Shown here in pieces: positions 8,862 through 13,615 of a stretch of 33,903 nt of DNA; position 1 is the stretch's first letter; each line of letters begins with the position of its first letter. The notes beneath the pieces were generated by a model. It did not search any database. It worked only from the letters and a program-made list of their open reading frames with translations, and was not told where the DNA came from. Origin of the DNA: Methanoculleus sp. MH98A (GTDB taxonomy: Archaea > Halobacteriota > Methanomicrobia > Methanomicrobiales > Methanoculleaceae); contig NZ_JMIO01000018.1 of the NCBI RefSeq assembly GCF_000691865.1, forward strand, positions 1 to 33,903, given 5' to 3'. The position numbers and the translations under genes were made by a program.

Positions 8862-9314
8862 TTAATGCTCGATATTCTTGATGTGCTCGATGGCGTTCTC
8901 CGCCAGTTTCTCCCGCCCCTGCAGTTCGGCGACGTCCCGTATCGCCTCAAGCATGTGGACGGAGTCTTCGAGAAAACTCAGGATGTCGGCGGGATAGAGA
9001 TCGATCCCGTATTCGTCGAGGAGGTGGGCGCTGATCTGGCGGTGATCGAGCCCCAGCTCCCGAAACTCGATGATGGTTAAGGTGAACTTACGTTCCGGGC
9101 ACCCGCAGAAGGGTGCGTTCTTGCACTTGCAGTCCATGAAGTCGTGGAAAAAGGCCAGAAGCTGCTCGTGCGTCCGGCGATCGAGGTTCTCGAAGTCGAT
9201 TGCCTTCCCGAGCGACTCAAGAAACGCACCCGAAAAGACATGATCCGGGAGGCGGAATCCTGCTGCCCGCTCAAGTTTCCGTGCCGCCCGGAACCGGGCC
9301 TTATCCGCGATCAC
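8862..9314 (-). CDS. Conserved archaeal protein with CxC-x5-CxC cluster, function unknown
   Basis: 150 residues from a GTG at 9312-9314 that overlaps the stop of the upstream gene (GTGA). A longer reading to 9443 has an arginine-rich, non-protein-like front and is rejected. The body begins VIADKARFRAARKLERAAG and contains CKCKNAPFCGC near residues 65-75, four cysteines suited to a zinc or iron-sulfur site. Then come LDHRQISAHLLDEYGIDLYPADILSFLED, an HTH-like helical stretch, and a C-terminal helix rich in Glu and Lys. From memory similar sequences occur in Methanomicrobia under a DUF label (possibly DUF5814), but I cannot confirm this. Coupling to the upstream gene suggests the two products act together. 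Confidence 0.72.
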   Translation of the reverse strand: MIADKARFRAARKLERAAGFRLPDHVFSGAFLESLGKAIDFENLDRRTHEQLLAFFHDFMDCKCKNAPFCGCPERKFTLTIIEFRELGLDHRQISAHLLDEYGIDLYPADILSFLEDSVHMLEAIRDVAELQGREKLAENAIEHIKNIEH

Positions 9315-9949
9315 GACGACTCGCCGGGCTCCTCGTCGAACTTCGCGAGCGACTTCATGGCGTTGCTCATGGTCTCGATCTCGATGAGCCACTCGTCGAA
9401 GAGGGTCGGGTCTTCCACGTTGTCCTTGATGTACTTCGCGCAACAGGTGGCGCCGTCGATCACGGCGGCCCCGATATTCGCCGCAACCTCAAGTGCCTCT
9501 TCGAGGTTCTCCTCGTCGATGCCCTTGCCCTTCTTCACGAGGGTCTTGATGTCCGTCTCAAACCCGCCCTCGAGATACTTCCGGCAGGCGGTGAAGAGCA
9601 CCAGCAGCGAGAGCTGGATCGACCCGATGATATCCTCGAGTTCCCCCTCGGGGAGGCCGGTCATGACGATAATCTCGACGTCGTCGAGTTTCTCCGTGGC
9701 CTCCTCTTTCGTGAACCGGCCGTTCTGGTAGAGGCGGATGATCTTTAAGACCGAGAGGGTGATATCTTCGGTGAAACTGAAGAGCATCTGTTCGCCTTCG
9801 GAGACCTCTTCGTCTTCGGCGGGCTCGAAACTTGCTTCTTGCAGCGTCTTGATCCAGTTGTCCCAGCGCTCCTGATTGTAAAAAATATAGAAGAGTTTCA
9901 TGGGTTCTGCCTGCTTGGCACTTTTTTTCTTCGCCATATCAGTACACAT
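9311..9949 (-). CDS. Conserved archaeal protein, function unknown (possibly DUF2150)
   Basis: 212 residues from ATG 9949, where GAGG sits 8 nt upstream; a second ATG at 9937 gives MAKKKSAKQAEP. The protein is acidic and helical, with no signal peptide: KLFYIFYNQERWDNWIKTLQEASFEPAEDEE, then VLKIIRLYQNGRFTKEEATEKLDDVE and EIIVMTGLPEGELEDIIGSIQLSLLVLFTACRKYLEGG in pieces typical of an all-helical bundle. ATCCAKYIKDN holds a cysteine pair. I believe it belongs to the archaeal DUF2150 family, from memory only. Its TGA overlaps the GTG of the next gene by 4 nt, so the pair is translationally coupled. It is divergent from larE across about 100 nt. Confidence 0.72.
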   Translation of the reverse strand: MCTDMAKKKSAKQAEPMKLFYIFYNQERWDNWIKTLQEASFEPAEDEEVSEGEQMLFSFTEDITLSVLKIIRLYQNGRFTKEEATEKLDDVEIIVMTGLPEGELEDIIGSIQLSLLVLFTACRKYLEGGFETDIKTLVKKGKGIDEENLEEALEVAANIGAAVIDGATCCAKYIKDNVEDPTLFDEWLIEIETMSNAMKSLAKFDEEPGESS

Positions 9950-10051: not shown

Positions 10052-10825
10052 ATGACGAGAGCTTGCAGGCTTGATGCGCTCCTGAAATCGTACGAACCTG
10101 TTGCGGTCGCGCTCTCCGGGGGAACGGACAGTTCGGTCCTGCTGGCCCTCGCCCGGCGGCACGGGATCCGGGCGATCGGCATCAGCGTCGATACCGGCCT
10201 TACACCGCCGGGAGAGCTCGCGGCGGCGCGCAAACTCTCGGAGCGTCTGGGTGTTCAGCACGTCGTGGTTTCGCTCGATATGCTTGAGATCCCCGCGGTC
10301 CGGGAGAACCGGCCGGAGCGGTGCTACGCCTGCAAGCGGGCGATGATGGAGGCGGTCGTGGCGGAGGCACGGCGGCGGGGATGCCGGACGGTGGTCGACG
10401 GGACCCACGCCGACGACCGGGCGGATACCCGACCCGGGATGCGGGCGCTCTCCGAACTCGGCATCAGGAGCCCGTTTGCCGAGTGCGGCATGGGGAAGGC
10501 GGAGATCGAGGCACTTGCGAGGGAACTCGGGGTGCCCGTCCGCCCGCCGTCCGCGTGCCTCGCAACCCGCATCCCCGCCGGGGAGCCGGTCACCCGGGAG
10601 TGCCTCGCCCTCGTCGCTGCGGCGGAAGCCCTCCTCGCGCGTGAGATCCCGGGGACGATACGGGTCCGGTGCACCGGCGGCAACCGTGCTTCCATCGAGG
10701 CCGATCCGGCGTACCGCCGGAGGCTTGAGGAACTGCTCGGTGCGGTGAAGGAACTCGGGTTTACCGGTGTAACGATTGCCTCCGGGGGCTACCGGGAAGG
10801 AGGTGCGGATTCGTGGAAGCGGTGA
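10052..10825 (+). CDS. larE: LarE-like ATP-dependent sulfur transferase (PP-loop)
   Basis: 257 residues. Family knowledge: LarE adenylates the carboxylates of a pyridinium dicarboxylate precursor and donates sulfur from its own cysteine to build the nickel-pincer cofactor of lactate racemase. Seen here: the PP-loop SGGTDSS at 22-28, SVDTGLTPPGELAAAR, ERCYACK with Cys91 and Cys94, VVDGTHADDRADTRPGM, and PSACLATRIP with Cys169 at the place of the sacrificial cysteine. The other cysteines of the iron-sulfur LarE subtype are not obvious. No larA, larB or larC is in the window, so the job may differ. The 3' end overlaps thiI by 13 nt, pointing to a shared sulfur-transfer role. ATG at 10052 lacks a clear ribosome site. 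Confidence 0.85.
   Translation: MTRACRLDALLKSYEPVAVALSGGTDSSVLLALARRHGIRAIGISVDTGLTPPGELAAARKLSERLGVQHVVVSLDMLEIPAVRENRPERCYACKRAMMEAVVAEARRRGCRTVVDGTHADDRADTRPGMRALSELGIRSPFAECGMGKAEIEALARELGVPVRPPSACLATRIPAGEPVTRECLALVAAAEALLAREIPGTIRVRCTGGNRASIEADPAYRRRLEELLGAVKELGFTGVTIASGGYREGGADSWKR
10799..10805 (+). promoter_or_regulatory. Ribosome-binding site of thiI inside larE
   Basis: GGAGGTG lies 7 nt before the GTG at 10813 and within the last codons of larE. It fixes the thiI start and shows the two genes are read from one mRNA. Confidence 0.8.
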
Positions 10826-11991
10826 TGGTCAGGTACGGCGAGATCTTCCTCAAGAGCGAGACGGTGAAACGGCGGTACATATCGATAATGACGGAGAATA
10901 TCCGGCTCGCGCTGGAGGCCGAGGGACTTACCCACCGTATCGAGACGTACCGGGGGCGGATCATGATCTACGGCGACGAGCCCCGTCGGATCGCCGTGGC
11001 GGCCGCAAAGACCTTCGGGGTGGTGAGCACCAGCGTCTGCACGGTGACCACGGCGGATATCGAGGGGCTCGCGGCCACGGCGGTCGAGCACGCAGAGAGG
11101 CATCTTGGGCCCGGGATGTCGTTTGCGGTCAGGGCGCGCCGGTCGGGCGTCGAGGGGTTCGGCAGCCAGGAACTCGCGGCGGCGGTCGGTTCGGCCGTCC
11201 TCGACCGGATACCGGAGGCGAGGGTCGACCTGACGGCGCCCGACTACGAGATATTCGTGGAAGCCCGGGAGTACGGCGGCCTCGTCTACGACGAGAGGAT
11301 CACGGGGCCGGGCGGGCTCCCCTACGGGACGCAGGGCGAGGTGATGGCCCTGCTCTCGGAAGGAATAGACTCGCCGGTCGCGTCGTGGCTGATGATGCGC
11401 CGGGGATGCCTGATGGTGCACGTCAACATGCACGGCGGGCGGTTCGGGGGTGCCGATGCGGAGAAGAACGTCCTCGCAAACCACGCCCGGCTCTCTCTCT
11501 GGGTGCCGGGGCATCCTCTCGACCTCCTGGTCGTGGAGATGGAGCCGTTCTTTGCGGCGATCACGGCACTGAAAGAGCCGCGCTACCGGTGCGTCCTCTG
11601 CAAGCGGTTCATGCTCAGGGTGGCGAGTATCCTTGCAGGAGAGCGGGGAGCCGCCGCCCTGGTCAGCGGCGACAACCTGGGGCAGGTGGCGTCCCAGACG
11701 CTCGCGAACATGTCGGTGATTGCTCCTGCGGCGACCGTTCCGGTACTCCGGCCGCTGATCGGGTGCGACAAGGAGGAGGTCGTCGACCGCGCACGCGCCA
11801 TCGGGACGTTTCAGGCGCGACCGGGAGACGTCGGGTGCACGGTCGCCCCCCGCTACCCCTCGACGGCGGCGCCCGCGGAGACGATCCTGAAACTCGAAGA
11901 GGCGATCGACGCGGAGGGGCTCGCGGAGCGGGCGGCGGCAACGGTGCGACGGTATCGAGCGAGGAACGGGGTGGTTGAGGAGGTTGGGTGA
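10813..11991 (+). CDS. thiI: tRNA 4-thiouridine synthase ThiI, archaeal form without rhodanese domain
   Basis: 392 residues. ThiI adenylates and thiolates uridine 8 of tRNA. Domains: N-terminal ferredoxin-like region (VMVRYGEIFLKSE), THUMP domain (about 60-165), then the PP-loop ATPase with ALLSEGIDSPVASWLMMRRG (182-188 core). The usual SGG is SEG here. The C-terminal rhodanese domain of bacterial ThiI is missing. Instead YRCVLCKRFM gives a CxxC pair at Cys260 and Cys263, which in methanogen ThiI is the known site that carries the persulfide. LVSGDNLGQVASQTL follows, as in the family. GTG start fixed by the GGAGGTG site. The gene overlaps larE and faces SepCysS, making a sulfur-focused neighbourhood. 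Confidence 0.93.
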   Translation: MEAVMVRYGEIFLKSETVKRRYISIMTENIRLALEAEGLTHRIETYRGRIMIYGDEPRRIAVAAAKTFGVVSTSVCTVTTADIEGLAATAVEHAERHLGPGMSFAVRARRSGVEGFGSQELAAAVGSAVLDRIPEARVDLTAPDYEIFVEAREYGGLVYDERITGPGGLPYGTQGEVMALLSEGIDSPVASWLMMRRGCLMVHVNMHGGRFGGADAEKNVLANHARLSLWVPGHPLDLLVVEMEPFFAAITALKEPRYRCVLCKRFMLRVASILAGERGAAALVSGDNLGQVASQTLANMSVIAPAATVPVLRPLIGCDKEEVVDRARAIGTFQARPGDVGCTVAPRYPSTAAPAETILKLEEAIDAEGLAERAAATVRRYRARNGVVEEVG

Positions 11992-12210: not shown

Positions 12211-13389
12211 TCAGACTATATTCAACCCGTTCTCCCGCGCAATCTCGACAAACGACTCCCCGACGTGCCGGATCTGCTTCTCCGTCAGCCCGAAAGTATT
12301 GTATTTCCAGACCCTGGTGGAGCCGGGGATGACGCCGGTGATGCCCCGCTTTTTTAACTCGCTCGAGAAGAAGTAGCCGCGTTTCTTGTGCTGCTGCGCC
12401 ACCTTATCGAAGGACTCGCGGGTATCGATCCGGGTCAGGGTGTGCTGCCGGGGGTAGTCGGAGAGCACCTTCGTCCCCTCGATGGAGAGGAGGGCGTCCG
12501 TGACCGCCTGCGAATGCGCCACCTCGGTATCCCAGTGCTTCACACGCTCTTTGACGTGGGGGAACGAGGCCATCATCCCGACGACGGTGACGCCCATCAG
12601 GGTGCAGCCCATCATCTCGACCTCTTTTATCCCGAACGTCCGGCCGGTGACGTCTCCCTTCGCCTGCGTCGTCCTGAATACCCGCTGTGCGTGCTCGTTC
12701 GTCGTCGCGAGGAGCCCCGATGGCGCCGGGGCCGCCATGCTCTTGTGGCCCGACCCGACCACGAAGTCGGCACCGAGCGCTTTGCCGTCGACGGGCATGA
12801 TCCCGACCGAGTAGGCCCCGTTGACGAGGACCGGGATGTCGTACTGGTGGGCGACCTTTATGATGCCCGCGACGTCGTGGACGTTCCCGAACTGGTAGTC
12901 GACGTGGTCGATGAAGAGCAGGGGCGGCGTCTTCGAGAATTCCCGGATCACCGCCTCGATCTTCTCTGCGGCGGCGTCGGGGGTGATGTGGTTCTTCGCA
13001 TCCTTCGGGATCTCACGCGGAATTCCGCCCGCTTCCTCGACCGCCACGAACTCGGTGTAGTGGGCGAGCGCCGTGACGATGACCGGGTCGCCTTTCTCCA
13101 CGTATGTGCTCGCGACCGCCTGGAACCCCCGGCGCGCTCCCGGCACCACCCGCACCGCGTCCATATTCAGCCACGCGGCGAGGTCCGCGTGGAACTGCGC
13201 GATGGGTGGCTTCTTGATGTAGTCGAGCCTGAAGGGGCTCAGGCAGTTGTCACAGACCGAGTAACCGTCCCCGTACGCTATCGCCGCCTTCATGGCATCG
13301 ACGGTGAGCCGCCCGCCCGCCTGGATGGGATCGATGTTGATGTACATCTCCTCGACGTCGCGGGACTCGATATCGACCGCGCACTTCAC
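12211..13389 (-). CDS. pscS: O-phospho-L-seryl-tRNA:Cys-tRNA synthase (SepCysS)
   Basis: 392 residues. This PLP enzyme converts phosphoseryl-tRNA(Cys), made by SepRS, to Cys-tRNA(Cys). It is the route to cysteine in methanogens lacking CysRS. Seen: GSGHKSMAAPAPSG with the PLP lysine K216, CDNC with Cys46 and Cys49, GC at Cys262, and HVDYQFGNVHDV in the PLP-binding core. The three cysteines match in spacing the trio of Methanocaldococcus SepCysS that holds the sulfur or iron-sulfur centre. ATG at 13389 overlaps by 4 nt the stop of a 60-residue upstream gene. The gene converges with thiI and ends at an oligo-T terminator. SepRS is not in the window. Confidence 0.95.
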   Translation of the reverse strand: MKCAVDIESRDVEEMYINIDPIQAGGRLTVDAMKAAIAYGDGYSVCDNCLSPFRLDYIKKPPIAQFHADLAAWLNMDAVRVVPGARRGFQAVASTYVEKGDPVIVTALAHYTEFVAVEEAGGIPREIPKDAKNHITPDAAAEKIEAVIREFSKTPPLLFIDHVDYQFGNVHDVAGIIKVAHQYDIPVLVNGAYSVGIMPVDGKALGADFVVGSGHKSMAAPAPSGLLATTNEHAQRVFRTTQAKGDVTGRTFGIKEVEMMGCTLMGVTVVGMMASFPHVKERVKHWDTEVAHSQAVTDALLSIEGTKVLSDYPRQHTLTRIDTRESFDKVAQQHKKRGYFFSSELKKRGITGVIPGSTRVWKYNTFGLTEKQIRHVGESFVEIARENGLNIV

Positions 13390-13568
13390 CGTACCAACTC
13401 CTCTTCGAGGATTGCAACCTGCCGTTTCACCTTCTCGAGGGTTGTTGCGGCGCGCTCCTTCTGGCCCGCGTCGAGGTCATGCCCGGGAGCGGTCTCCCGG
13501 AGCAGGAACCGGACGTCGGAGAGGAGGAATAGTGCCTGAAAAACTGCATCAACGGCTCTTTTTGACAC
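13386..13568 (-). CDS. Small helical protein coupled to SepCysS, function unknown
   Basis: 60 residues from GTG 13568 (VSKRAVDAVFQALFLLSDVR), preceded by GGTGAT (minus strand) and a TATA box at 13596-13603. A TTG 15 nt upstream is possible but lies at or before the expected RNA start. The sequence is two amphipathic helices: FQALFLLSDVRFLLRET and ERAATTLEKVKRQVAILEEEL, a coiled-coil-like hairpin with no cysteines or signal peptide. Its stop overlaps the pscS ATG (ATGA), so SepCysS translation depends on it. Class I methanogens have SepCysE, a scaffold joining SepRS and SepCysS through a helical N-terminal domain. A reduced equivalent is a fair hypothesis, but I cannot show homology. Confidence 0.7.
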   Translation of the reverse strand: MSKRAVDAVFQALFLLSDVRFLLRETAPGHDLDAGQKERAATTLEKVKRQVAILEEELVR

Positions 13569-13595
13569 GAGATCACCATACAAATATCAGTGGAG

Positions 13596-13603
13596 ATATA
13601 TTA
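13596..13603 (-). promoter_or_regulatory. TATA box of the small-protein/pscS operon
   Basis: TAATATAT-type sequence on the minus strand, centred about 31 nt before the GTG at 13568. Initiation about 25 nt downstream gives a leader of only a few bases. Confidence 0.6.
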
Positions 13604-13615
13604 GATTACGCGTAT

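Follow-up and report, generated by a model that had tools for sequence, protein, structure and literature searches.

The window, a stretch of 33,903 nucleotides from Methanoculleus sp. MH98A, carries on its minus strand a frame of 60 residues (MSKRAVDAVFQALFLLSDVRFLLRETAPGHDLDAGQKERAATTLEKVKRQVAILEEELVR) that runs from a GTG at position 13568 to a stop at position 13386, directly before pscS, the gene for SepCysS (Table 1). The pscS product displays an 8-residue insertion with respect to the Methanocaldococcus jannaschii and Archaeoglobus fulgidus enzymes, the insertion reported for SepCysS clades II-VII in Mukai et al. (PMC5424206). Two further genes, larE and thiI, converge on pscS, and the three constitute a sulfur-handling neighbourhood. 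The thiI gene is found beside pscS in most same-genus loci that have enough flanking sequence. A frame of 212 amino acids at 9311-9949 on the minus strand has no NCBIfam match at 1e-5.

Table 1. Features of the pscS locus (positions refer to the window).
Feature	Position	Strand	Evidence or remark
LarE, sacrificial sulfur transferase	10052-10825	+	next to pscS, convergent
ThiI, tRNA 4-thiouridine synthase	10813-11991	+	next to pscS, convergent
pscS (SepCysS)	12211-13389	-	NCBIfam TIGR02539, 392 bits (cut-off 365); PDB 3wkr_A, 2e7i
Small gene (SepCysSn)	13386-13568	-	translation, conservation, dN/dS, PDB profile and fold matches
Helix 2, residues 34-59	13392-13469	-	AlphaFold2 model
GAGGAG, Shine-Dalgarno-like, for pscS; inside the small gene, codons E56-E57	13398-13403	-	junction sequences of relatives
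Turn A-P-x-H-x-L, residues 27-32, common to SepCysE	13473-13490	-	alignments
Helix 1, residues 3-25, with invariant F10, L16, D18, R20 and R24	13494-13562	-	AlphaFold2 model, alignment A1
GGTGAT, Shine-Dalgarno-like, for the small gene	13572-13577	-	kept across relatives
TATA-like element, AT-rich (CTAATATATC)	13595-13604	-	almost no variation among 28 upstream regions from the genus

The two genes are tightly joined. The stop of the small gene and the pscS start, a GTG at 13389, have the tetranucleotide GTGA in common, in agreement with the 4-nt overlap stated in the preliminary description, and an overlap of this length is found in 47 of 56 loci. The GGTGAT proposed there as a site before the small gene is likewise present upstream of the start in nearly every relative. 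Further upstream, the succession of CTAATATATC and GATATTTGTATGGTGATC (within 13572-13604) is nearly invariant in the genus. A role of CTAATATATC as the TATA element of the small gene is plausible. Its centre is located only ~31 nt upstream of the GTG, so that, if it is a TATA box, a leader of ~5 nt would remain at the spacing usual in archaea; GGTGAT may therefore lie partly outside the mRNA.

Comparison with relatives confirms that 13386-13568 on the minus strand is a real, conserved gene. Among the 57 pscS loci of relatives in which adjacency was checked, which represent six families of Methanomicrobiales, a small frame directly precedes pscS in 56, and the remaining locus runs off its contig. 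In a sample of 345 genomes from the phylum, 67 of the 68 that belong to Methanomicrobiales have a match to the family profile, and no variation at residues F10, L16, D18, R20, R24 and P28 is seen among 53 distinct stand-alone sequences. The small gene is also present in several loci where no mre11 was detected next to pscS, which indicates that the linkage is with pscS. The protein sequence is under purifying selection, with a median NG86 dN/dS of 0.22 over 615 pairs, and differences within the genus are distributed over codon positions 1, 2 and 3 as 3471, 1378 and 6108. Neither a lack of conservation nor a substitution ratio of the noncoding type, the two observations that had been proposed as evidence against the gene, was found. 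A spurious frame that the codon bias of GC-rich DNA has kept free of stops would account for a second open frame that covers part of the stretch; against the values of 1.10 and 2.59 obtained for dN/dS in the two shifted frames, and with the protein kept across six families and also outside Methanomicrobiales, the probability of this explanation is practically negligible.

The AlphaFold2 model of the small protein (mean pLDDT 97) consists of helices H3-25 and H34-59. The two helices claimed in the preliminary description are thus reproduced, and a short two-helix hairpin describes the protein better than the label coiled-coil-like. A Pfam search returned nothing above the cut-off, only sub-threshold chance matches (ApoL and TPR_6), and an NCBIfam search gave no match; genes of the SepCysSn type are therefore probably unannotated, or annotated as hypothetical, in many genomes.

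A search of 177,635 PDB sequences with a profile of 53 relatives revealed SepCysE from M. jannaschii (MJ1481; PDB codes 3wkr, 5x6b and 5x6c) as the first match, with an E-value of 0.0094. The match covers residues 54-95 of the SepCysE N-terminal domain (NTD) and includes the A-P-x-H-x-L turn. Against a whole Methanocaldococcus genome, the SepCysE NTD is the single match at E<=10. An hhalign comparison of the family with 30 class I SepCysE proteins gave an E-value of 9.6e-5 over 47 columns, a score reached by none of 300 column-shuffled decoys and by 2 of 200 heptad-block shuffles. Statistically, the sequence match is modest. A Foldseek search of 350,542 PDB chains with the model placed SepCysE at ranks 1 to 5 with probabilities of 0.99-1.00, and the first of these superimposes with an rmsd of 0.9 over 49 columns; the short length of the protein limits the E-values to 0.2-0.4. 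Profile, predicted fold and gene context agree in showing the small protein as a stand-alone homologue of the SepCysE NTD. The same evidence bears on the proposal that it is an unrelated small helical regulator, transcriptional or translational, of pscS and hence of Cys-tRNA synthesis. Such a function would suit a small, helical product of a first gene with its own conserved upstream block, but sequence and fold searches of the PDB both place SepCysE first, and SepCysS copies in these genomes carry the domain as a fusion, all of which makes an unrelated regulator very improbable.

In several Methanomicrobiales genomes there is a second SepCysS that carries the domain fused in frame at its N-terminus (SepCysSN). 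Stand-alone and fused domains match each other in hhalign with an E-value of 5.9e-10. The profile of the fused domains (A3) alone gave no match to SepCysE, and the link to the latter runs through the stand-alone form. Two Methanomicrobiales genomes that lack the stand-alone gene (G232 and G362) encode a fused SepCysS. Because either the separate gene or the fusion is present, the domain accompanies nearly every SepCysS examined in Methanomicrobiales, in cis or in trans. The model of the natural fusion computed by AlphaFold2 (alignment A2, 12 sequences) has a mean pLDDT of only 48, too low to place the domain on SepCysS.

At L061:627-1683, L057, L062, L064 and L070, the second, fused SepCysS copies are located mostly directly behind tRNA-Cys(GCA) genes, with up to three of these within 1.1 kb in L061. 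In the genome of the window itself, no second full-length SepCysS is found among the matches listed. Outside Methanomicrobiales, locus L111 (genome G242) encodes a divergent SepCysS (43% identity) without an adjoining domain; the position immediately upstream is occupied by a short frame that contains a C-P-N-C motif and, judged by eye, resembles a thioredoxin/glutaredoxin.

In an outgroup-rooted SepCysS tree, the enzymes with a stand-alone partner form one clade (support 94/90, 97% of bootstrap trees) that is nested among the fused enzymes, which suggests that the separate small gene arose by fission of the fused form. A single clade of fused enzymes is not rejected by the AU test (p 0.22). 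The turn motif points in the opposite direction: A-P-x-H is found in the stand-alone form and in SepCysE, and L-P-T-G in most fused forms.

The preliminary description had proposed a minimal SepCysE-type partner of SepCysS. Descent from the SepCysE type is borne out by profile, fold and gene context; the scaffold function between SepRS and SepCysS that the proposal implied is not. In SepCysE, the N-helix binds SepRS, the NTD dimerizes and rests on the SepCysS dimer so that the two-fold axes are aligned, and the C-terminal domain (CTD) holds the tRNA (PMC5688128). Deletion of the N-helix abolishes SepRS binding, and no tRNA binding by the SepCysE-SepCysS complex can be detected once the CTD has been deleted (PMC5688128). 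In the model of the small protein, helix 1 aligns with the NTD and is preceded by nothing that would correspond to the N-helix, and the chain stops after helix 2, where the CTD is absent. The fused forms do not have the N-helix either, and a full SepCysE profile found nothing at E<=1 in the genome of the window. The corresponding dock on SepRS is altered as well. The M. jannaschii loops that grip the N-helix have the sequences ILDEF, FNGE and ALVSN; in 12 aligned Methanomicrobiales SepRS sequences, loop 1 differs, three residues of loop 2 are deleted and another sequence takes the place of loop 3. The identity between Methanomicrobiales and class I enzymes is 0.12 in these loops and 0.48 over the whole protein, and the loops are conserved inside each group (0.56 and 0.67, respectively). 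The A. fulgidus SepRS also differs in the loops. Because the N-helix and the CTD are absent and the SepRS loops are lost or replaced, a tether between SepRS and SepCysS by the known route is unlikely.

A true minimal scaffold would then have to bridge SepRS to SepCysS without the SepCysE N-helix, through some other surface. The small protein is homologous to the SepCysS-binding domain of the scaffold, and in a genome with SepRS and no detected CysRS channelling could matter; set against the lack of the N-helix in both stand-alone and fused forms, the altered loops of the 12 Methanomicrobiales enzymes and of A. fulgidus SepRS, and the published effect of the N-helix deletion, these points leave such a bridge quite improbable. 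A different function is raised by R20 and R24, which lie one helical turn apart and are invariant in the 53 distinct stand-alone sequences. All 12 fused domains of A3 have arginine at the aligned positions, as do the other fused domains listed, whereas SepCysE carries D and Y there. The pair perhaps marks a surface with a changed role, in contact with SepCysS or with tRNA. If R20 and R24 touched tRNA-Cys, the small protein could be a tRNA-contacting cofactor of SepCysS that replaces the lost CTD, and it is consistent with this that M. jannaschii SepCysS alone gave no measurable tRNA binding (PMC5688128). However, the mean net charge of the small protein is about -0.5, tRNA binding was not detectable for the M. 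jannaschii NTD when the CTD was missing (PMC5688128), and the arginines may equally form a SepCysS contact, so that we consider a tRNA cofactor rather unlikely, if less so than a bridge.

The reading that we favour, at a probability of roughly 0.8, is that the small protein is a homologue of the SepCysE NTD that serves as a co-translated structural subunit of SepCysS and not as a tether for SepRS; its binding to SepCysS is what we infer from these comparisons. A built-in subunit is more likely than a bridge because the SepRS-bridging and tRNA-holding pieces are missing. Ribosomes that translate the small gene would pass on to pscS by way of the 4-nt overlap and the GAGGAG inside the small gene, and the coupling would give an output of SepCysSn to SepCysS of about 1:1. 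The hairpin dimer is anticipated to dock on the SepCysS dimer with the two-fold axis in common, as the SepCysE NTD does in 3WKR and 5X6B, and could there contribute to the stability of the SepCysS dimer or to positioning the N-terminal chain with which the tRNA makes contact. CysRS was not detected in the genome of the window, nor in 8 of the 9 relatives checked, and SepRS is present in the former. The small protein would therefore serve the SepRS/SepCysS pathway, the only Cys-tRNA route detected in this genome. A more far-reaching proposal, which we put forward tentatively and at less than even odds, is that in this archaeal group SepCysSn forms an obligate subunit of SepCysS without bridging, in which the SepCysE domain has been kept for a different role in the SepCysS reaction, marked by R20 and R24. 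The SepRS tether would then have been lost on both sides, in the N-helix and in the SepRS loops.

In current understanding, SepCysE acts as a bridge and holds the tRNA. Nearly all of Methanomicrobiales retains its SepCysS-binding domain, without the parts that bridge and hold tRNA and with an altered SepRS dock, and the question of what the NTD does for SepCysS itself is now testable. SepCysE (MJ1481; 3WKR, 3WKS, 5X6B and 5X6C) has in common with SepCysSn the two-helix hairpin with the A-P-x-H-x-L turn; it comprises ~216 amino acids, whereas the small protein of 60 amino acids is devoid of the N-helix, the linkers and the C-terminal tRNA-binding domain.

The names SepCysSn for the stand-alone form and SepCysSN for the fused form were given by Mukai et al. 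in 2017 (PMC5424206) and are used in PMC8762117. A full-text literature search for the term SepCysSn returned only these two papers, both of them surveys. Term searches of their main texts did not find Methanomicrobiales named, and the text covered revealed no experiments on SepCysSn, nor any mention of the coupling throughout the order, the altered SepRS loops or the arginine pair. What the present analysis adds is the coupling to pscS across the order, the loss of the N-helix together with that of its SepRS dock, and the arginine pair; the novelty is modest. As described in the text covered, SepCysSn and SepCysSN are, like the small gene, small homologues of the SepCysE NTD, the former with its gene immediately in front of that for SepCysS and the latter joined to the SepCysS N-terminus; between the published SepCysSn and the small gene there is no decisive difference. 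The small gene at the pscS locus thus belongs to the SepCysSn kind already described.
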